Assembly: GCA_019313905.1 (NCBI GenBank) | Contig: JAFDAI010000007.1 | Coordinates: 1-64,000 of the forward strand | Origin: Deltaproteobacteria bacterium | GTDB taxonomy: Bacteria > Desulfobacterota > Syntrophia > Syntrophales > UBA2210 | DNA: 64,000 bases | Direction of reading: 5' to 3' | Part shown: positions 101 to 62,715 of the stretch, in pieces | Position numbering within the stretch: the stretch's first letter is position 1 | Layout of the letters: the number at the start of each line of letters is the position of its first letter | Notes under the pieces: model-generated | Databases searched by the model: none | Told to the model about the DNA's origin: nothing | The model's input: only the letters and a program-made list of their open reading frames with translations | Position numbers and translations under genes: made by a program

Positions 101-269
101 CCGGAAATTACTGATTCCAGGTATCGTATATCTAAAAAGTCCCTTTAAATTTTGCATAAAGAAAACCCTCCTTTATTAAAGAAAGAGTATCCGCCTGATT
201 GGTAATTGGGTTATGGCTTTTGATAGTACATCGCGTAATACTGAGTTCTTATTATATTTTCTCTAACAC

Positions 270-436
270 ATATAAAAACCCCCGTCTTTCTTTTCGAAAA
301 ACAGGGCTTTTAGATAATCGGACCATAATCTCTCCATTGGTTATAGCTGTTCAAAAGCAGACATGATGCGTCTAAGATCAATAGAATACATTAACCCACT
401 AACTCCATTATGCTATCTTGTCAAGAAGTATTAAAG
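270..436 (-). ncRNA. candidate small RNA, diverged copy A of the element at 11520-11694
   Basis: Reverse complement shares blocks TAATACTTCTTGACA, TTTTGAAC, GCTATAACCA, GAGATTATGGTC, TAAAAGCCCTGTTTTTCGAAA with the second copy; ends in hairpin plus T-run. Confidence 0.45.
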
Positions 437-10037: not shown

Positions 10038-11050
10038 AAGAAACAATTCTCTATGAAAAGCTGGACAATGATTATGTAAGATGTCATCTCTGCGCTCACA
10101 GATGCAGGATAGCCCCATCAAAAATAGGCATCTGCGGGGTTCGGGAAAATCGGAGTGGAACACTCTACTCACTGGTATATGGAACATCGATAGCAGAAAG
10201 CATAGACCCTATCGAGAAGAAGCCCCTGTTCCATGTATATCCAGGTTCTAAATCCTATTCCATAGCCACCGTTGGGTGCAATTTCAGGTGCGACTTCTGC
10301 CAGAATTATGACATATCACAGGTATCGCGCAGGAAGGAAAAGATCAGGGGGCACAGCTCCATGCCGGAGGAGATTATAGAAAGAGCACTGAGGTCAGGAT
10401 CAAAAACCATCGCGTACACATACACCGAACCTACGATATTCTTTGAATACGCGCTGGATATAGGAAAGATGGCACATAAAGAGGGTATCAAGAATGTCTT
10501 TGTTACCAACGGCTTCATGACTGGGGAGGCGCTTGAAGAAATAGCCCCTTGGCTCGATGCGGCGAATGTTGACCTCAAATCATTCCGCAACGGATTCTAT
10601 AAGAAGTACTGCGGAGGGAAACTCCAGCCGGTTCTGGACAGCCTGAAGAAAATGAAGGATCTCGGCATCTGGGTAGAGGTAACAACTCTCATCATACCAA
10701 CCCTGAATGACAGCAAAGAAGAACTGCGGGACATCGCCCGGTACATCCATTCACTCGGCCCGGAAACTCCCTGGCATATCAGCCGATTCCACCCACAATA
10801 TAAGATGCAAAACATCCCCCCTACCCCGCTGACAACGATACACATGGCATCAGAGATAGGGAAAGCAGCCGGCCTCAAATATGTTTACTCCGGCAACGTC
10901 CCGGGTAATGAGGGAGAAAGCACCTATTGTTCAAATTGTGGGAGACTGTTGATAAAAAGATATGGATTTAATGTTAAAAAGATAGATCTGAGAGAATCAA
11001 AATGCCCCGCGTGCAAAACCCCGCTGGACGGTATCTATGAAAATCCCTAG
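10034..11050 (+). CDS. amrS: AmmeMemoRadiSam system radical SAM enzyme
   Basis: CHLCAHRCRI...GICGVREN...CNFRCDFCQNYDIS; ATGA overlap with upstream gene, so internal start preferred over ORF start 9812. Confidence 0.9.
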   Translation: MKETILYEKLDNDYVRCHLCAHRCRIAPSKIGICGVRENRSGTLYSLVYGTSIAESIDPIEKKPLFHVYPGSKSYSIATVGCNFRCDFCQNYDISQVSRRKEKIRGHSSMPEEIIERALRSGSKTIAYTYTEPTIFFEYALDIGKMAHKEGIKNVFVTNGFMTGEALEEIAPWLDAANVDLKSFRNGFYKKYCGGKLQPVLDSLKKMKDLGIWVEVTTLIIPTLNDSKEELRDIARYIHSLGPETPWHISRFHPQYKMQNIPPTPLTTIHMASEIGKAAGLKYVYSGNVPGNEGESTYCSNCGRLLIKRYGFNVKKIDLRESKCPACKTPLDGIYENP

Positions 11051-11058
11051 GACAATAT

Positions 11059-11325
11059 CTAAGAATCTGTCACGATATCATCCTCTTCATAGGATTCCGC
11101 AAGCACATCGCGGGCCCTTTCCAAATACCTTGAAGGCACCATTATCCTTACCTCACCAAGGCCATTGAGGGTAAGACCATAGATGACACCTACTGCTTCG
11201 TACTGAAGTTTTACAGGAATGCCCTCCGCTTTAAGTCTTCCAGCCACGATATTCGCGTTTATCATCCCGGATGCCACGTCGGCAACTTCCCATTTTTCTT
11301 CTTCCATATTATGACACCATCTCAC
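11059..11325 (-). CDS. DUF2007-type putative signal transducing protein
   Basis: 88 aa; VADVASGMINANIVAGRLKAEGIPVKLQYEAVG...VRIMVPSRYLERARDVL. Confidence 0.75.
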   Translation of the reverse strand: MRWCHNMEEEKWEVADVASGMINANIVAGRLKAEGIPVKLQYEAVGVIYGLTLNGLGEVRIMVPSRYLERARDVLAESYEEDDIVTDS

Positions 11326-11519
11326 TCAAGGGCAGGCCACATATCCCTTTTTACACTACTCTCTACTATTTTGTATCTTCGCACTCTACAAGTACCAGGC
11401 TGTGTACATTGATGAAAATACATTTGTCAATAATAAAGCGATGGGTGTCGGTTCTTTGCCCTGACGCCCTGATTTTTACTTGACATATTTTCCTCTATTT
11501 TCCATTGTCTGATTTTGCT

Positions 11520-11694
11520 GTAATACTTCTTGACATATAACGGTAATGCGTTTAGTCAGTTGGCAGGTTTTGTCAGATTTTTAATGTATGGCGTGTGTTT
11601 TTGAACGTGAACGGCTGTAACCAAGAGGGAGATTATGGTCTGATCATTTAAAGCCCTGTTTTTCGAAACGAGAGACAGGGCTGTTGTTTTTTGT
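11520..11694 (+). ncRNA. candidate small RNA, copy B, with intrinsic terminator
   Basis: TTGACA at 11530; terminal stem AGCCCTGT(11652-11659)/ACAGGGCT(11675-11682) followed by T-run at 11687-11692; homologous inverted copy at 270-436. Confidence 0.5.
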
Positions 11695-11755
11695 GAGCGG
11701 GTTAGGTTTTTATCAAGAACCATATAAACACTGTTGTACATAACGAGGAAAACCA

Positions 11756-12463
11756 ATGCCAGAGCAGGAACGATCTTTGACAACGAAAGTGAAGCGCGCT
11801 GTGAGTAGCAATCCAGGGGAGCATATTCTAAGCGTTCTCAAAGCTGGATTAGCGACGACACCATTTTGTGGTGGCATAGCTTCACTAATGAACGACTATA
11901 TTCCTTCCGGCAAAATCCACCGCTTGGAGCAATTTGCCGAGAGACTATCTGAAGACCTAAACAGACTCAAAGATCGTGTCGATGAAAACATAATACTGAC
12001 TGATGAATTTGCTTTCATTTTCGAAAAATGTTTCAGAGGTGTAGCTGAGAACTACCAGTCGGAGAAGCTAGAATCATTCAGAAATATATTGGTAAATTCC
12101 GCCATAGGAACCAACCTTTCCGAAGACGAGAAAGAATTTTTCCTGAATCTAGTTACTACGCTTTCAGTTCTTCATATCCGAGTACTTAAATTTATGGCCC
12201 ACCCACTGCAATATCTCGAAATGCAAGGCATTCCAGCAGATCAAATCAGGGGGGATTTTTCTCAGTTTTTCCTAATTGCGATGCCTGACGTCGATCTAGA
12301 GGTAATCAAGTCAGCATTTGGTGATCTACATCAATATGGGTTCATCAACACTGACAAGACGGTCTTTTCAGCTATGACCTCTGGTCAGGGGCTTGGCCTG
12401 CTGGGGAATCGCGTTTCAGAGCTGGGCAGGAGATTTATTGAATTCTGTAGTCGCCCGAATTAA
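11756..12463 (+). CDS. uncharacterised, mostly helical protein
   Basis: 235 aa ORF; ...GGIASLMNDYIPSGKIHRLEQFAERLSEDLNRLKDRV... Confidence 0.75.
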   Translation: MPEQERSLTTKVKRAVSSNPGEHILSVLKAGLATTPFCGGIASLMNDYIPSGKIHRLEQFAERLSEDLNRLKDRVDENIILTDEFAFIFEKCFRGVAENYQSEKLESFRNILVNSAIGTNLSEDEKEFFLNLVTTLSVLHIRVLKFMAHPLQYLEMQGIPADQIRGDFSQFFLIAMPDVDLEVIKSAFGDLHQYGFINTDKTVFSAMTSGQGLGLLGNRVSELGRRFIEFCSRPN

Positions 12464-12581
12464 CAACCGAAAAATAGCGACAGTGACTATTTTTCACTTG
12501 CCCCACGCGCCACCTACAATTGTCCCTCAATTCGGATATACTTGAAAGATTAAAAGTTTCTTGTAACGGGGTCTCGAATCT

Positions 12582-13685
12582 TTGGAAAAATTTGAAGAAA
12601 ACATTGAGAAAACAGGCTATGTTTTAGAATTTAACGTGTCATCCTTGTTAAAGAAGCATGGTTGGAGTGTCATTAACAATAAATACTATATTGATGACGT
12701 TCAACCGGCAGTGAGGGAGATGGATATAGTTGGATACAAGGCTAGGATTGTATCGGGGTTCACTCTTTATACGGTATTGATAATTAGCTGTAAAAAAAGC
12801 GAAAAAAACTGCTGGGCTTTAATCTCAAAAGACAGAGATGACAAAGATCCAAATATAAGATGGTATCCGTTACACCTTTGGGCAAATGACAAGGGTTTGA
12901 ATTACATTTTAAACTTGCCGGAATTTCAAGAAGAATATCTTGAACTAATCAACTCTAAAAACATTTTTCCGAAAATATTTACCCCTTCCTCCCATATTTT
13001 TGCTTTTCAAGAAATGAATAAAAAAAGTGGTTCTGTTCAGAACGATAAAAATATTTTTTCTTCCGTAACATCTTTAATGAAAGCTCAGGGCTACGAAATT
13101 AGTTCGCTAAGTAAACGAAAACGGGAATCGTGTATTTATCAATTTAATCTTTTATCCATTGTGGACACAGATTTGCTGGAAATTTTTTTGAATGAAAAGG
13201 GACCAAGCGCGCACCCAATTGATGAGGCAAAATATATAGGTAATTACATTATAAACAACCAAGAGACATGCGTAAAAATACACTTTATTACTTATTCAGC
13301 TTTAGATTCGGTTCTTGATTGTTATGACACGTTAAATTCTTGTAACTTGAATTTTTTTAAAAATCACCATAAATCATTTTTTGAAGATATTTTGATTGAC
13401 TATGAAAAGAAAGAGGTCTTCATAAAAGAATTTATTGAGGATATTCTTTGGTATATTAACCACGAACTACGAAGACACGATAACTCACACAAAAATTTGA
13501 AGGATTTGTATTTGGGCTGGGATAAAGAAAAAAAGATTGCTTTAATTGAGCTTGAAATTGATCAGGATGCTATCGATCATTTAAACTCAGATGCAAGAAC
13601 AAAAGCAGTAGTAGGTAAGTCATTGAAAAAGTTTTATCGTTACACTGGAGAACTTCTATTTTCAGAAGTGGACGTCCCATTTTAA
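12582..13685 (+). CDS. uncharacterised protein with restriction-endonuclease-like N-terminal domain (TTG start)
   Basis: 367 aa; N-terminal ...REMDIVGYK...LYTVLIISCKKSEKNCW resembles D-x(n)-(S/E)xK nuclease core; AT-rich. Confidence 0.7.
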   Translation: MEKFEENIEKTGYVLEFNVSSLLKKHGWSVINNKYYIDDVQPAVREMDIVGYKARIVSGFTLYTVLIISCKKSEKNCWALISKDRDDKDPNIRWYPLHLWANDKGLNYILNLPEFQEEYLELINSKNIFPKIFTPSSHIFAFQEMNKKSGSVQNDKNIFSSVTSLMKAQGYEISSLSKRKRESCIYQFNLLSIVDTDLLEIFLNEKGPSAHPIDEAKYIGNYIINNQETCVKIHFITYSALDSVLDCYDTLNSCNLNFFKNHHKSFFEDILIDYEKKEVFIKEFIEDILWYINHELRRHDNSHKNLKDLYLGWDKEKKIALIELEIDQDAIDHLNSDARTKAVVGKSLKKFYRYTGELLFSEVDVPF

Positions 13686-13825
13686 TCCAGCGGGAAATTC
13701 CCGTTCGTAAGGGCGGAGATGAGAGCAATATCCAGTAGTCTTTCGTATATATGAAAGACAGACTGGACAAGTGAAACTTGAATCAGAAGATACCACGTCC
13801 GTGAGGGCGTGGAGATTCATAACCG
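13686..13825 (+). other. IS200/IS605 (IS1341-type) right-end / omegaRNA-like structured remnant without tnpB
   Basis: Hairpin CCAGTaGTCTTTC…GAAAGACagACTGG (13732-13766), then GTGAAACTTGAATCAGAAGATACCACGTCCGTGAGGGCGTGGAG with hairpin 13792-13811. Confidence 0.4.
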
Positions 13826-13862
13826 GTTAAATCAACAGTGTCATCAATGGAGATGCAGAATT

Positions 13863-16172
13863 ATGGATACTTTACGAGTCGACATTTGTTATCGCCCCTT
13901 ACGGATCGGGTGGGCTATTAAGTCAGATGACTTCGACGCGTTTCGAAAAGTAGTTAGATATTCATATGCACTTTGGGGTGGCCAATTCAATCCAATATTA
14001 TTTGTTGATTGTGAAGATGAATCGAGTCGGCTAATTGATTTGTTTAGAGTAGATATGATTATCCCTGTTGGCGATAGCGACAAAGTTGGAGACTTTCCAA
14101 AGAAATATCCATATCTAATACAACCCTTTTTCCATGATTCGATCTTTATGAAAGGCAGCGAGCACTCTCATCCAAGCTCAAATGTGCTCGATATACACAA
14201 TGCGTTGGCATATTTACACGATAAACCAGAATGGAAGAAAATAAAGGACTATGGCGTACATTATTATTCTTGGGCCGCAGACGATCCGTTGGCTGATATT
14301 TTTTTATCTCAATTAGGGGGCTATCCAGATAAAGATGAAATTGGTAAAGATTATCTTGAGTTGTTAAGAAGAGCCTCCGAATTTACAGAGATTTCATTGG
14401 ATTCATCAGAACCAATATCCGCCGTTACGGTTGACCATCCAAGTATTTCCTATCTTTCACGTCACGGTATGAAACGGCACTATGGAATAGACCAAGGTTG
14501 GAAGAGCCCCGGTTTCTTTGTGGGACGTGTCACAAATCTTGAAGACTTAGTGTGTCACTGGAATCTAAGAGCCTGTGACATACCCTTGTGGTTTATTGAT
14601 CCCCAATATCTTGAACGCTATACAGTCCTTCTTCCAGCATGGGAAAAGGCAATGCAGGATAAAGTGGATAGTTATCGTCATGAATGGGATAGAAACGTAG
14701 CCGTCTGGACCCGATGGAAAGACCTTGATGAAGCATGCAAGCCGTTTGGTGAAAGTAAGCTTCTGCGTTGTCGTGTATCGGATGGGACGTGGAATGGACT
14801 AAATGTCCGAGCGCCGATGATGTATTTTGGGGAAGCGTCTGTACTTGGGGTTATGAGCGGTGAAAATAGTAAGCCGAGGGTCTCATTTGCATTGTCTGAT
14901 AAGCCTTTCTGTGGTGATATATGGTTTCATCAACAGCATTTAGTTGCTTCTGTTTCTTTTATTGGCGGTTTGTATGGAGATGAGCAGCATACATTTCATG
15001 TACCATATTTACCGGAGCTTAATGAGTTTTATGCTCGTACGATGCATTTCCAATATGACAAACTACGCATCGAGCCGGAAAGAATAGGTATTGTCATCGA
15101 TGCAGCAGATCACGATAGCTTTCTGTATGCGTTACCTATCGCGGAATTAACGGAACGTATATTTGATATGGCAGGATATGAAGCAAATTTAAGCAATGCG
15201 GGATTAATTACAAAACAACTGATCACTAAACTTGGTGGCGTTCAAGGTGGACGGGTGTTTAAGGTGCCAGGAGTACGGCGGCTATTAAAGACTCATGGGC
15301 TTAATGCATCTATAACAAAGAGAACGGCACTGGATACTATAGGCTCTAAAGATCCCGATCGTCCAGATGCAAAATTTAGTGACCATAAAGAGCTATATAT
15401 AGAATCACGACCAACTGGCAAGGAGCTTACACCAGACGCAGTTTTCGGTTACCTGGTGGGCAATGGTTTGTTTCGTGTCGGTGCGGATTTGACTTGTCCC
15501 TCATGCAAAATAAATTCATGGATTCCTCTGGATTCATTGAAACAGAAAGTTGTGTGCGACTTATGTGGGCATGAACACGACGTAACGAGAAATCTCACTG
15601 ATGTAAATGAATGGCATTACCGTAGATCAGGTGTGCTCGGAGTAGAGAAAAATGCTCAGGGAGCAGTGCCGGTTACTCTTACCCTCCAACAACTAGATAC
15701 AAATTTTCATGGTGGATTACATAATAATATGTATTCACCATCATTGGATTTAACGCCTAAGCCAGATGTAGAAGGCACTAAGTGTGAAACAGATTTTGTT
15801 TGGGTTATCCCAAGGGCATATCCGCGAAGAACTGTAGTTATTTTGGCCGAATGTAAAGATCAAGGACCAATCACGAGTGATGATGTTTCGAATTTGAAAC
15901 GAATTGCAGATGCTTTACCTATGAAGCGTTTTAAAACATTCATAATTCTGTCGAAGATTTCACCATTTACAGACGATGAAATAAAAATCGCGAAAACATT
16001 AAATGACCAATATCGTCAACGTGCTATTCTACTTTCCGCCAATGAGTTAGAACCATATTTCATACGTGAGCGAACAAAGGATGAATCTGGTAGAGACTTA
16101 AGATGGTATAGCCCAGAAGAAATGGCGAATTCGACAGCGCAGCTATATTTTACACATGAAGAAGTTGATTGA
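13863..16172 (+). CDS. uncharacterised large protein; zinc-ribbon-like motif plus C-terminal PD-(D/E)XK-like domain
   Basis: LTCPSCKINSW...VVCDLCGHEHD; TDFVWVIP...RTVVILAECKDQGPITSDDVSNLKRI; start placed at MDTLRVDICYRPLRIGW because ORF start 13809 lies in the structured remnant. Confidence 0.8.
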   Translation: MDTLRVDICYRPLRIGWAIKSDDFDAFRKVVRYSYALWGGQFNPILFVDCEDESSRLIDLFRVDMIIPVGDSDKVGDFPKKYPYLIQPFFHDSIFMKGSEHSHPSSNVLDIHNALAYLHDKPEWKKIKDYGVHYYSWAADDPLADIFLSQLGGYPDKDEIGKDYLELLRRASEFTEISLDSSEPISAVTVDHPSISYLSRHGMKRHYGIDQGWKSPGFFVGRVTNLEDLVCHWNLRACDIPLWFIDPQYLERYTVLLPAWEKAMQDKVDSYRHEWDRNVAVWTRWKDLDEACKPFGESKLLRCRVSDGTWNGLNVRAPMMYFGEASVLGVMSGENSKPRVSFALSDKPFCGDIWFHQQHLVASVSFIGGLYGDEQHTFHVPYLPELNEFYARTMHFQYDKLRIEPERIGIVIDAADHDSFLYALPIAELTERIFDMAGYEANLSNAGLITKQLITKLGGVQGGRVFKVPGVRRLLKTHGLNASITKRTALDTIGSKDPDRPDAKFSDHKELYIESRPTGKELTPDAVFGYLVGNGLFRVGADLTCPSCKINSWIPLDSLKQKVVCDLCGHEHDVTRNLTDVNEWHYRRSGVLGVEKNAQGAVPVTLTLQQLDTNFHGGLHNNMYSPSLDLTPKPDVEGTKCETDFVWVIPRAYPRRTVVILAECKDQGPITSDDVSNLKRIADALPMKRFKTFIILSKISPFTDDEIKIAKTLNDQYRQRAILLSANELEPYFIRERTKDESGRDLRWYSPEEMANSTAQLYFTHEEVD

Positions 16173-16367: not shown

Positions 16368-18464
16368 ATGGCGAGACTGACCGAACAGGAACAGCAGGAG
16401 ATTATCCGCTATATCGAAGCGGATAAACCGTTGCCGGACAAATACCGTTTCCTCTTATTTGAGGACAAGCGCGAGGTGGAACTGGTCTGGAGTGGCAAGA
16501 CGAGCGAGGTCTGCAATATCGTTCTCCCGTTTCAAGTGATCGAGCAGGTGGATGAGCCGCGGGCCGAGAAGCCGGAGGATACAGCGGCCCAGTTGTCTCT
16601 TTTTGACGAGCGCGGGCGGCAGCTCAAAGGCTGGACGAATAAACTCATCTGGGGCGACAATAAGCTGATTCTCGCGTCGTTGAAGAACGGGCCGCTGCGT
16701 GAGGAGATTGAGACCCAGGGCGGACTGAAACTGATCTACATCGATCCCCCATTCGACGTGGGCGCGGATTTTTCGATGGATATAGAGATCCCGTCTTCCG
16801 ACGGGACCTCTGACACCTTCACGAAGAAGCCAAACATCCTGGAAGAGATCGCCTACCGCGACACCTGGGGCAAAGGCGCGGATTCGTTCATTGCCATGAT
16901 CTACGAACGGCTCGTTCTCATGCGTGATCTTTTGGCCGAGGACGGGAGCATATATGTGCATTGTGATTGGCGGGTTAATAGTCACATCCGGATGGTTTTA
17001 GATGAAGTATTTGGAGCGGATAGATTTATAAATGAAATTGTGTGGTGTTATACATCTGGCGGGAAAAGTGTCAGGATGTTTTCCAAAAAGCACGACACCA
17101 TACTTTTTTATTCAAAAACCAGTGGCTATATATTTAATGATGATGATGTAAGAATTCCGTATAGCGAAAAAACGTTAGCTAATTATAAAAAAGGGTTAAT
17201 GGGATCGTCTTACACTGCTGAAGTGAAGTTAAACGAGAAAGGTAAAATCCCTGAAGATTATTGGAATATTTCAATAGCAACGAAAAGTTTAATTGAGAAT
17301 CTCGGATACCCAACTCAGAAACCAGAACAACTTATTGAACGCATAATCAAAGCCTCTTCCAACGAAGGCGACCTCGTGGCCGATTTCTTCTGCGGTTCCG
17401 GCACCACGGCTGCGGTGGCTGAGAAGTTGAACCGAAAGTGGATCGTCAGCGACCTGGGCAAATTCGCCATCCACACCACGCGCAAGCGAATGATCGGCGT
17501 TCAGCGTCAACTTAAGGATGATGGCAAGGACTACCGTGCCTTTGAGATCCTCAACCTGGGCAAGTATGAGCGGCAGCACTACATCGGCGTAAACCTGAAC
17601 CTGCGCGAGGAAGAGCAGCAAAAACAGATCGAAGAGAAGGAGGCCGCATTCCTCGACCTGATCCTGCGCGCCTATCGTGCAGAGAAGACCGAAGGCTTCG
17701 GCACCTTCCACGGCAAGAAGGCTGGACGGCTTGTCGCTGTCGGCCCGGTTAACCTGCCCGTGACGCGACTCTTCGTCGAAGAGATCATTCTGGAGTGCCG
17801 CAAAAAGCACATTACGAAGGTGGACATCCTGGGCTTTGAATTCGAAATGGGACTGTTCCCGAACGTGCTGGACGAGGCACGCGCCAAGGGGATCGACATC
17901 GCGCCGAAGTACATCCCGGCCGAGGTTTTCGACAAGCGGGCGGTGGAGAAGAATCAAGTGGTGTTCCATGATGTGGCGTTCATCGAGGTTAAACCGCATG
18001 TAAAGAAGAACAGCGCGGCAGTGGAGTTGACCGATTTTTCTGTTTTCTATTCGCAGGACTCTATCGCCAACGCCGAGGCCGCCATCAAGAATAAGGGCAG
18101 TCGCATAGTTGTGGAGAAGGGGCAGATAGTGAAGGTGAGCAAAGACAAGGACGGCATCGTCAACCGTGAAGTGCTCACAAAAAACTGGACCGACTGGATC
18201 GACTACTGGGCAGTGGATTTCGACTTCGAGAGCAAGCGCGAGATCATCCGGGTGAAAGACGAAGACAGTAGGGAGTGGGAAGAACGCTGGACAGGGGATT
18301 TTATATTCGAGAACGAGTGGCAGTCATTCCGGACAAAGAAAGACCGCTCCCTGGAACTGAAGAGCATTTTCCACGAATGCACGCCGGGACGGCGCAAGCT
18401 CGCAGTAAAGGTGGTGGACATCTTCGGCAACGACACGATGACCATTGTTGAGGTGACGGTATGA
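16368..18464 (+). CDS. mod: type III restriction-modification DNA methyltransferase (Mod)
   Basis: YIDPPFDVGADF (motif IV DPPF), DWRVNSHIRMVLDEVFG, FFCGSGTTAAVAEKLNRKWI (motif I). Confidence 0.93.
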   Translation: MARLTEQEQQEIIRYIEADKPLPDKYRFLLFEDKREVELVWSGKTSEVCNIVLPFQVIEQVDEPRAEKPEDTAAQLSLFDERGRQLKGWTNKLIWGDNKLILASLKNGPLREEIETQGGLKLIYIDPPFDVGADFSMDIEIPSSDGTSDTFTKKPNILEEIAYRDTWGKGADSFIAMIYERLVLMRDLLAEDGSIYVHCDWRVNSHIRMVLDEVFGADRFINEIVWCYTSGGKSVRMFSKKHDTILFYSKTSGYIFNDDDVRIPYSEKTLANYKKGLMGSSYTAEVKLNEKGKIPEDYWNISIATKSLIENLGYPTQKPEQLIERIIKASSNEGDLVADFFCGSGTTAAVAEKLNRKWIVSDLGKFAIHTTRKRMIGVQRQLKDDGKDYRAFEILNLGKYERQHYIGVNLNLREEEQQKQIEEKEAAFLDLILRAYRAEKTEGFGTFHGKKAGRLVAVGPVNLPVTRLFVEEIILECRKKHITKVDILGFEFEMGLFPNVLDEARAKGIDIAPKYIPAEVFDKRAVEKNQVVFHDVAFIEVKPHVKKNSAAVELTDFSVFYSQDSIANAEAAIKNKGSRIVVEKGQIVKVSKDKDGIVNREVLTKNWTDWIDYWAVDFDFESKREIIRVKDEDSREWEERWTGDFIFENEWQSFRTKKDRSLELKSIFHECTPGRRKLAVKVVDIFGNDTMTIVEVTV

Positions 18465-19288
18465 GCAAAACGCAGAAGATCGAAATTCTTGACAGGGAAA
18501 TCGCCCTTCAGACCAGAAATAAGGAAGATTATATCTGTATCACCGATATTGCACGGTATAAAAATTCAGACCGTACCGATGATTTGATCAGAAATTGGCT
18601 AAGAAACAGGAACACAATTGAGTTTCTCGGCATATGGGAGCATCTGAATAATCCAGATTTTAAACCCGTCGAATTCGACGGGTTTAAAAAACAGGCGGGA
18701 CTCAACAGTTTCACCCTTACACCCAAGCAGTGGATTGAAAAAACCGGCGCCATTGGTATTTTTTCCAAGGCGGGACGCTACGGAGGCACCTACGCGCATA
18801 AGGACATCGCCTTTGAGTTTGCATCATGGATATCCGTTGAATTCAAGCTCTACCTTATCAAGGAATTCCAACGACTCAAAGAAGAGGACTTCAAGCAGCT
18901 CGGCTGGGATATCAAAAGGAATCTTGCAAAAATCAACTACCGCATCCATACCGACGCAATCAAGGAGAACCTTGTGCCGCCGGAACTCACGCCGCAGCAG
19001 ATAAACCTGGTTTATGCCACGGAGGCGGATGTGCTGAATATGGCGCTCTTTGGAATGACGGCGAAGGACTGGCGCGAGAACAACCGTGGCAAGAAAGGTA
19101 ATATCAGAGATTATGCCAATGTCTCCCATCTGGTTTGTCTCTCTAATCTGGAAAACCTCAACGCCCTTTTTATTAATGAAGACCTGGCCCAGAAAGACCG
19201 GCTGATAAAGCTGAACGCCATTGCCATTCAGCAGATGAAGCTTCTTATCGATGACCATGGCATCAGAAAGCTGGAAGGAGGGGAATAA
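18461..19288 (+). CDS. KilA-N domain-containing protein
   Basis: CITDIARYKN...LIRNWLRNRNTIEFLGIWEHLNNPDF...GGTYAHKDIAFEFASWISVEFKLYLIKEFQRLK. Confidence 0.88.
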   Translation: MSKTQKIEILDREIALQTRNKEDYICITDIARYKNSDRTDDLIRNWLRNRNTIEFLGIWEHLNNPDFKPVEFDGFKKQAGLNSFTLTPKQWIEKTGAIGIFSKAGRYGGTYAHKDIAFEFASWISVEFKLYLIKEFQRLKEEDFKQLGWDIKRNLAKINYRIHTDAIKENLVPPELTPQQINLVYATEADVLNMALFGMTAKDWRENNRGKKGNIRDYANVSHLVCLSNLENLNALFINEDLAQKDRLIKLNAIAIQQMKLLIDDHGIRKLEGGE

Positions 19289-29756: not shown

Positions 29757-29931
29757 GCAGCATTTCCCCTGCTTCCCTTGCCTGTTCATGATTCTGCTTA
29801 TTAATGGTCTTTTCGCCCAATCTCTGCGTTATGCTCAAAAAATAATCCTCGGAATATCAAGTATATACCTGCGGTTATTTTTTTCGCACGCCTTGATCTT
29901 GAACGAAAATCCTCATAAATCAACAGAATCA

Positions 29932-48482: not shown

Positions 48483-48613
48483 CTGTCTGAGAATAGTAAT
48501 TTTTTCTCAAATTGAGGAATGAGAAAAAAATTACCGCAGGCATATAATTGATATTCCGAGGATGATTTTTTGAGCATGACAAAGAGTTGAGGAAAAAGGG
48601 CATTCTCAGACAG
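48483..48613. repeat. MITE-like element with perfect 12-bp TIRs CTGTCTGAGAAT
   Basis: CTGTCTGAGAAT at 48483-48494, ATTCTCAGACAG at 48602-48613. Confidence 0.7.
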
Positions 48614-61418: not shown

Positions 61419-61563
61419 TCGTAAAAAGTCAAGATTGGACGGCAAAATAAAAAGCTCCAAATCCAAGGCACGCAAGGCTTGAGGAATGAGGCGTACTTAC
61501 GGTACGCCGCAGTGACAAAGGATGCAGCGGAACGCAGGAGTTGGACTTTTTACGAAGCCGTCA
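61419..61563. repeat. MITE/REP-like dispersed repeat copy 1
   Basis: TIRs TCGTAAAAAGTC/GACTTTTTACGA; internal GAGGAATGAGGCGTACTTACGGTACGCCGCAGTGACAAAGGATGCAGCGGAAC shared with copy 2. Confidence 0.88.
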
Positions 61564-62418
61564 ATCGAAGATGATGGTCTTTGAACCATAAACCAGTATC
61601 CTGTGTTCCAGATGGAGCCTGACCGCTTTCGCGAGAATGGTTCTCTCCAGGTCTTTCCCTTTGAGTTTCATGTTGTCCACCGAATCCTTGTGCGTGATTT
61701 TTATAACATCCTGCGCAATTATAGGCCCTTCATCCAGCGTTTCCGTAACGTAATGGCTGGTGGCGCCGATGATTTTCACTCCCCTGTCATACGCCTGCTG
61801 GTAGGGATCGCCACCCGCGAAGGCCGGTAGAAACGAGTGGTGTATATTGATTATCCTGCCATGATACCTGCCTACAAACTCACTGCTTAATATCTGCATG
61901 TAGCGAGCCAAGACTATCAAGTCTATCCCTTCTTTTTCCAATTCGGCAATCGTTTTCTTTTCCTGCTCTATCTTGTTTTCCGGCGTAATCGGACAATATC
62001 TGTAGGCAAGGCCAAAATGATCGGCTAGCGGTTTCATATCAAGATGATTGCTTATTACGAGGGGTATCTCCGCCCTGAATTCCCCCATCTGGTGTCTCAG
62101 TATGAGATCATGAAAACAGTAGACATGTCTGGAAACAAATATTGCCATCTTCGGCATATAATCGGAGAAATGTATATTCCATTTCATTCCGAACCTCTGC
62201 ACAAGGGGTGCGATCGCACCCTTCAGCTCGTTGCGAACGATGGTAAATCCCTCCATATCCCATTCTACCCGCATGAACAGCATATTTTCAGGTTGAACCG
62301 AATACTGGGCGGCATCCAGTATATTGCCATTATGCTTTGAGATAAAGTTGGATATCCCCGCCACAATCCCCTTTTGATCGGGGCAGGACAGCAGCAGTAT
62401 GGCTGTTGTTTTTTCCAT
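61561..62418 (-). CDS. purU: formyltetrahydrofolate deformylase
   Basis: ACT-domain N-terminus LLLSCPDQKGIVAGISNFISKHNGNILDAAQYS; YMQILSSEFVGRYHGRIINIHHSFLPAFAGGDPYQQAYDRGVKIIGATSHYVTE. Confidence 0.95.
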   Translation of the reverse strand: MEKTTAILLLSCPDQKGIVAGISNFISKHNGNILDAAQYSVQPENMLFMRVEWDMEGFTIVRNELKGAIAPLVQRFGMKWNIHFSDYMPKMAIFVSRHVYCFHDLILRHQMGEFRAEIPLVISNHLDMKPLADHFGLAYRYCPITPENKIEQEKKTIAELEKEGIDLIVLARYMQILSSEFVGRYHGRIINIHHSFLPAFAGGDPYQQAYDRGVKIIGATSHYVTETLDEGPIIAQDVIKITHKDSVDNMKLKGKDLERTILAKAVRLHLEHRILVYGSKTIIFD

Positions 62419-62487: not shown

Positions 62488-62715
62488 TCCGTAAAAAATC
62501 CAGATTAGATGGCAAAGTAAAAAGCTTCAAATGGAGGTGCACTCCCTACAGGGTGGTGCACCTCCCGGCAAGAAACATTATATTTATATTATATCCCTTC
62601 GGGATACCCCCGGTCAAGGCGCGCAAATCATGAGGAATGAGACGTACTTACGGTACGTTGCAGTGACGAAGGATGCAGCGGAACACAGAAGTTGGACTTT
62701 TTACAAAGCCGTCAA
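62488..62715. repeat. MITE/REP-like dispersed repeat copy 2, interrupted by a ~80-bp hairpin-rich insertion
   Basis: Aligns to 61419-61563 at both ends; extra GGAGGTGCAC…GTGCACCTCC block between. Confidence 0.85.

Follow-up and report, generated by a model that had tools for sequence, protein, structure and literature searches.

The window analyzed here, a 64,000-nt stretch of contig JAFDAI010000007.1 from a bacterium of the order Syntrophales, carries at 11530-11692 a compact element (Table 1). A promoter-like box opens it and a leader follows; the 3′ part consists of one hairpin, H1, and of a second, H2, whose 14-bp stem belongs to an intrinsic terminator. The element lies at the edge of a restriction-modification (R-M) island. 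The three genes directly behind it (235, 367 and 787 aa; 11756-16172) matched nothing in Pfam, NCBIfam or PADLOC and are a candidate unknown defense module; they stand between the element and the type III Mod gene, and are missing from the same site in a related genome (G005), where the same upstream genes and element are followed directly by type III Mod. Within the island, a KilA-N domain protein (18461-19288) lies between the Mod and Res genes.

Table 1 Features of the element and its surroundings in the window
Feature	Position	Strand	Basis
-35 box TTGACA	11530..11535	+	Exact match; within a longer conserved promoter region, ~11518-11565
Putative -10 hexamer TAGTCA	11553..11558	+	Inferred from 17-nt spacer after TTGACA
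Leader, promoter to H1	11565..11608	+	Consensus TTGATCTTGAACGCATcATGTGTGCTTTT, alignment A4 of 39 copies
Hairpin H1	11609..11645 (approximate)	+	Fold, covariance model match 11609-11692, pair counts on A2
H2 terminator hairpin and T-rich tail GTTGTTTTTT	11652..11692	+	Terminator scan, fold, pair counts
Recurrent post-terminator segment TTAGGTTTTTATCAaGAaCCATATAAACAcTGTT	11701..11735	+	Alignments of 8 copies; L123 promoter-only locus
First downstream gene, 235 aa	11756..12463	+	ORF list
The island's Mod gene (type III R-M)	16368..18464	+	Pfam N6_N4_Mtase; synteny with G005
Second H1-H2 core	268..352	-	Match at 267-353, 81% over 89 bp, E 3e-17

A first-pass annotation had read this stretch as an independent small RNA gene, with a TTGACA box at 11530, a conserved body, a terminal 8-bp stem with a T-run serving as intrinsic terminator, and a diverged copy elsewhere in the window. 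Most of this anatomy was borne out. The box is exactly where it had been placed, the conserved body is present in the window element and in its homologs, and the diverged copy is the second core of Table 1. The terminal stem AGCCCTGT/ACAGGGCT and its T-run are likewise present, but the stem is 14 bp long rather than eight, closing a 3-nt loop (11652-11682) ahead of GTTGTTTTTT. Terminator scan and fold agree on an intrinsic terminator here, the sole terminator-like site on either strand of the 11040-11800 region scanned. Upstream, 51 of 67 family copies retain the region that contains TTGACA. The putative -10 hexamer of the window copy is a weak match (two of six consensus positions), and the promoter scan made no call at this position of the window element; the area around it is strongly kept across copies (family consensus GTTAgT), and transcription of the window element is expected to start near 11565.

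H1 is interrupted by an A.A mismatch and by bulges of one base; its apical loop is rich in purines, resembles a Shine-Dalgarno (SD) sequence and is followed by ATG. The 89-nt 3′ part of the element folds at -30.9 kcal/mol, against a mean of -19.2 for shuffled sequences (z -3.5; 1 of 200 shuffles at least as stable), and z-scores of the H1-H2 part range from -3.4 to -6.2 in the window and the other copies folded. RNAalifold on alignments A2 and A4 gave H2 only; the H1 structure is a manual one, based on folds of single sequences. The second copy in the window has its own conserved TTGACA stretch (419-436, minus strand), and its downstream gene is off the contig end. Two further repeat pairs occur in the window, one direct (61464-61564 and 62615-62715, 89% over 101 bp) and one inverted (29803-29888 and 48520-48604, 84% over 86 bp).

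The first-pass annotation had recognized no known RNA family, and no Rfam family reached its gathering score, all sub-threshold matches falling far below; literature searches found no description of it. A DNA search returned seven strong copies in the host metagenome-assembled genome (MAG); across 41 genomes it gave about 50 matches, spread over 13 of them. With a covariance model of 84 positions (R1), we found eight copies in the host MAG. Within its bacterial family, 12 of the 20 genomes together hold about 60, and a single genome has as many as 15. At a stricter cut-off the element is confined to 13 of the 156 order-level genomes (the class-level sample consists of these same 156 genomes), and a phylum sample of 396 genomes added one distant match. 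Its distribution across relatives is patchy, and blastn against plasmid and phage collections gave no match. The genomes are MAGs whose contigs often end near element copies, and neighboring genes were called by simple ORF rules. Taken together, the element is a real bacterial RNA family outside Rfam, with about 65 to 70 homologs. A c-di-GMP-I-GGC riboswitch aptamer was also seen in the host MAG (L132:3854-3930), about 1 kb from an element copy.

Homologs with covariation had been named as the check on this RNA, and the dispersed family provides them. In the 46 sequences of alignment A2, 89% of paired cells are standard pairs, compared with 41-53% when the partner is slid, and H2 is paired in 96% of cells. 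Both sides have changed in 12 of 28 pairs, seven of these among the 13 pairs of H1, and 29 double-change cells were observed against 13.3 in shuffles; we prefer these A2 counts to those from A3, which about ten antisense mirror hits inflate. Both hairpins are supported by compensatory changes. Read on the + strand, H2 holds 128 G.U cells to 5 A.C cells and H1 121 to 39; drawing the structure from this strand introduces some bias of this kind, though not of the size seen in H2, and the H2 imbalance indicates that selection acts on the RNA of the + strand.

Several other identities were considered and set aside. A coding sequence or peptide does not fit, as the H1 loop changes in length by steps that are not multiples of three and the subfamilies have no ORF in common; together with CTG to CCG changes that are matched by CAG to CGG, these loop lengths exclude an obligatory reading frame. 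An obligatory "ATG GTC TGA" minigene was rejected too, since in some copies TGA becomes CGA together with the CAG to CGG change. Inspection of A2 and its flanks revealed none of the outer RYYYAAC/GTTRRRY core sites of an integron attC site; the lone GTTAGGT at 11701 of the window is not conserved in other copies. As far as tested, the element is neither an insertion sequence end nor a degraded gene, the outcomes that would have undone the first-pass annotation, since its RNA pairs are kept and its subfamilies share no ORF.

The placement of the copies relative to genes is strongly biased. Among the 63 copies with a callable downstream gene, this gene is co-directional in 57 by ORF calls, and in 58 after correction of L108, where the sequence continues into the gene found at L050; the upstream gene is co-directional in 46 of the 63. 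The downstream bias has a binomial p of about 2e-12 when tested against 0.5 and of 3e-4 when tested against the upstream rate, with the reservation that copies are not fully independent. The start codon may follow closely, after 25 nt (L036), 26 nt (L047), 46 nt (L050, L055) or 54 nt (L061), each with a purine-rich ribosome-binding site. In G261, a genome that belongs to a different family of the phylum, only 10 nt separate the modeled element from the start of a DnaQ-like gene, and a relative of this gene (56% identity) also lies behind the element in G007. Gaps of 10-54 nt leave no room for a second promoter.

These data bear on the reading that H2 is just a widely used intrinsic terminator and that H1 and the promoter belong to unrelated neighbors. 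Conservation is highest in H2, and some weak copies (L125, L110) do sit at gene 3′ ends, as do L042, L052 and L043; all five lack the promoter and can only be terminators there. Yet H1 covaries as well, promoter and leader are conserved alongside, and the bias lies in the downstream gene, where a 3′ terminator predicts an upstream one (46/63). We therefore regard this reading as very improbable.

Further loci carry the promoter without the H1-H2 core. It stands directly before genes at L135 (RhuM, in G002), L031 (a methyltransferase, in G003), L045 and L123, and the core-less loci include two of G015; at L123 (in G036), the promoter runs straight into the segment otherwise found 3′ of the terminator. 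In G006, the core sits between the promoter and the same RhuM gene that has no core in G002. The core is thus an optional piece between promoter and gene.

One rival explanation, close to the first-pass reading, is a stand-alone family of trans-acting small RNAs, with the gene behind a mere neighbor. Their partners would be mRNAs, bound by base-pairing, or a protein, and the purine-rich H1 loop may provide the contact. Within about 160 bp, the element unites a promoter box, a structured body and a strong terminator, and so has both a promoter (the TTGACA region, with its weak -10 box) and a terminator (H2) of its own; many near-identical copies occur per genome, as in sibling small RNA families, and the H1 loop and linker are conserved in sequence. 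Such a family would not, however, be expected to show so strong an orientation bias of the neighboring gene, nor start codons 10-54 nt away, which tie it to this neighbor, nor core-less loci in which the same promoter feeds the gene directly. Hence, an RNA element with promoter box and terminator stands, and its stand-alone status has become rather unlikely, given 58 of 63 co-directional 5′ leaders, some without promoter room, and the core-less promoter-gene versions. A short terminated RNA is probably made all the same, as the product of attenuation.

The DNA around the copies is subject to turnover. At a SpoU-type locus in three species of one genus (L054, L133, L063), the same upstream locus and element are followed by three unrelated downstream genes, and the locus looks like an insertion hot spot. 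Likewise, copies beside an acyl-CoA ligase gene (G013, G017) keep the upstream side and the element while the downstream DNA is unrelated; a search for an empty site found no ortholog of these without the element. The reverse pattern is seen at L050 and L108, where the same gene lies behind the element in two genera (91% over 888 bp). Beyond the terminator, a second dispersed intergenic segment, TTTAGGTTTTTATCAGGAnCCATATAAACATTGTT, often after ACGGCAAAATTGCCGTG, occurs in at least eight copies (window 11701-11735, L041, L121, L042, L056, L037, L124, L109, L123) and is also found without the H1-H2 core. A third conserved intergenic segment, about 185 bp long, comes after the element and before different genes (L040, L130, L107, L120). 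In the window, the post-terminator segment contains CATATAAAC, which makes a second promoter at 11701-11740 possible for this copy.

Because upstream sides are kept while downstream sides are swapped, and the reverse, a mobile or recombination element stays under consideration: a dispersed MITE-like or REP-like unit, or an insertion hot spot, with an incidental hairpin and accessory genes exchanged alongside. The patchy distribution, the unrelated DNA behind identical upstream gene and element (window and G005, SpoU, acyl-CoA ligase), the core in different contexts, the filled and empty versions of one leader and, in G006, the imperfect direct repeats that flank the core are all in keeping with this. 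An incidental hairpin would not account for selection on the RNA of one strand, though, or for a promoter and leader conserved along with the core; no constant ends or target duplications were seen in the flanks, and some loci (L050/L108) keep the downstream side instead. On balance, we consider this explanation unlikely.

The genes served are, by their predicted products, unrelated, share no common pathway, and are mostly accessory, many of them restriction or anti-phage genes. First genes include HsdM of type I R-M (L059, L061), UPF0158 followed by HsdM, type III Mod (G005), Mrr and GmrSD/HEC-05. Further first genes encode a PADLOC SIR2 protein, RhuM, HNH, DUF4062, TcmP and a ParB/N6-N4 methylase protein; others are DnaQ, a kinase, lipoproteins, an outer-membrane barrel, SCP2, a tautomerase, an isochorismatase, an esterase and ATP-citrate lyase.

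The explanation we favor, with confidence somewhat above even, is that the element acts in cis as a 5′ leader, a portable transcription attenuator with signal-controlled read-through. It builds on the family itself, the RNA-level selection on H1 and H2, the position between promoter and gene, and the core-less promoter-gene loci, all of which are observed; transcription, termination, read-through and its control are what we infer from them. An intrinsic terminator does lie between promoter and start codon, judging by sequence anatomy and with the promoter identified by consensus only, and a co-directional gene follows in most copies (58/63). Transcription would start about 30 nt past the TTGACA box; RNA polymerase would copy the leader and H1 and then mostly stop at H2, releasing an RNA of about 130 nt, and mRNA of the gene behind would arise only from read-through. 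The promoter-leader module would have spread before many unrelated accessory genes, often R-M or defense genes, and would keep them at a low or conditional level.

Some observations count against attenuation. By inspection, a pairing between GAACAG (H1) and CUGUUU (H2) is possible in the main group, but an alternative subfamily lacks this pairing, and no antiterminator structure conserved across subfamilies was found. Since the downstream genes have no common pathway, no common signal is apparent. The poor -10 box, the promoter-less copies at 3′ ends and the possible second promoter in the window also speak against it.

One candidate for the signal, rather than a finding, is ribosome loading or sensing through the SD-like loop and ATG. 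The corresponding version of the attenuator, in which a ribosome on the H1 loop starts at the ATG, opens H1 beside the terminator and so sets read-through, strikes us as quite doubtful. The purine-rich loop and ATG are kept in 55 of 68 copies, TGA is the third codon after this ATG in 38 of 68 (a two-codon minigene), and at two ATG positions (pairs 8-38 and 9-37 in A2) the letter is mostly fixed while its H1 partner varies; in five copies, however, TGA has turned into CGA. If true, a shared translation-status switch would have spread before many restriction, defense and envelope genes.

Should the attenuator explanation be right, one short RNA module would serve as a common brake before many horizontally variable genes, including restriction and anti-phage genes, and would bear on how new or costly genes stay quiet and get released, in a lineage known here only from MAGs. 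It would also provide an RNA family absent from Rfam, counting about 65 to 70 homologs, that is open to direct reporter testing.

Known systems resemble the element in part. Processive antitermination is brought about by RNAs such as HK022 put and Bacillus EAR; like these, the element is a two-hairpin RNA at the transcript start that could govern read-through of variable genes, whereas its second hairpin is itself a terminator, and comparison, made through Rfam only, gave no match. With REP/BIME or MITE repeats it shares a short, dispersed, hairpin-forming intergenic nature and a patchy distribution, but it differs in its polarized RNA selection, its own promoter box and its downstream orientation bias, and the constant ends and duplications of such repeats were not seen. 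Multicopy families of trans-acting small RNAs are alike in having their own promoter box, a predicted RNA of about 130 nt, a strong terminator and many copies, and unlike in that the element is tied to a downstream gene by orientation and distance. The remaining comparison is with attenuators that carry intrinsic terminators in 5′ leaders, a class that has been surveyed (PMC2965389) and that has the same order of promoter, structured leader, intrinsic terminator and co-directional gene. In contrast to that class, the element lies outside Rfam, with no ligand, leader peptide, T-box or conserved antiterminator recognized, and here one and the same RNA family precedes dozens of accessory genes that are unrelated to each other.
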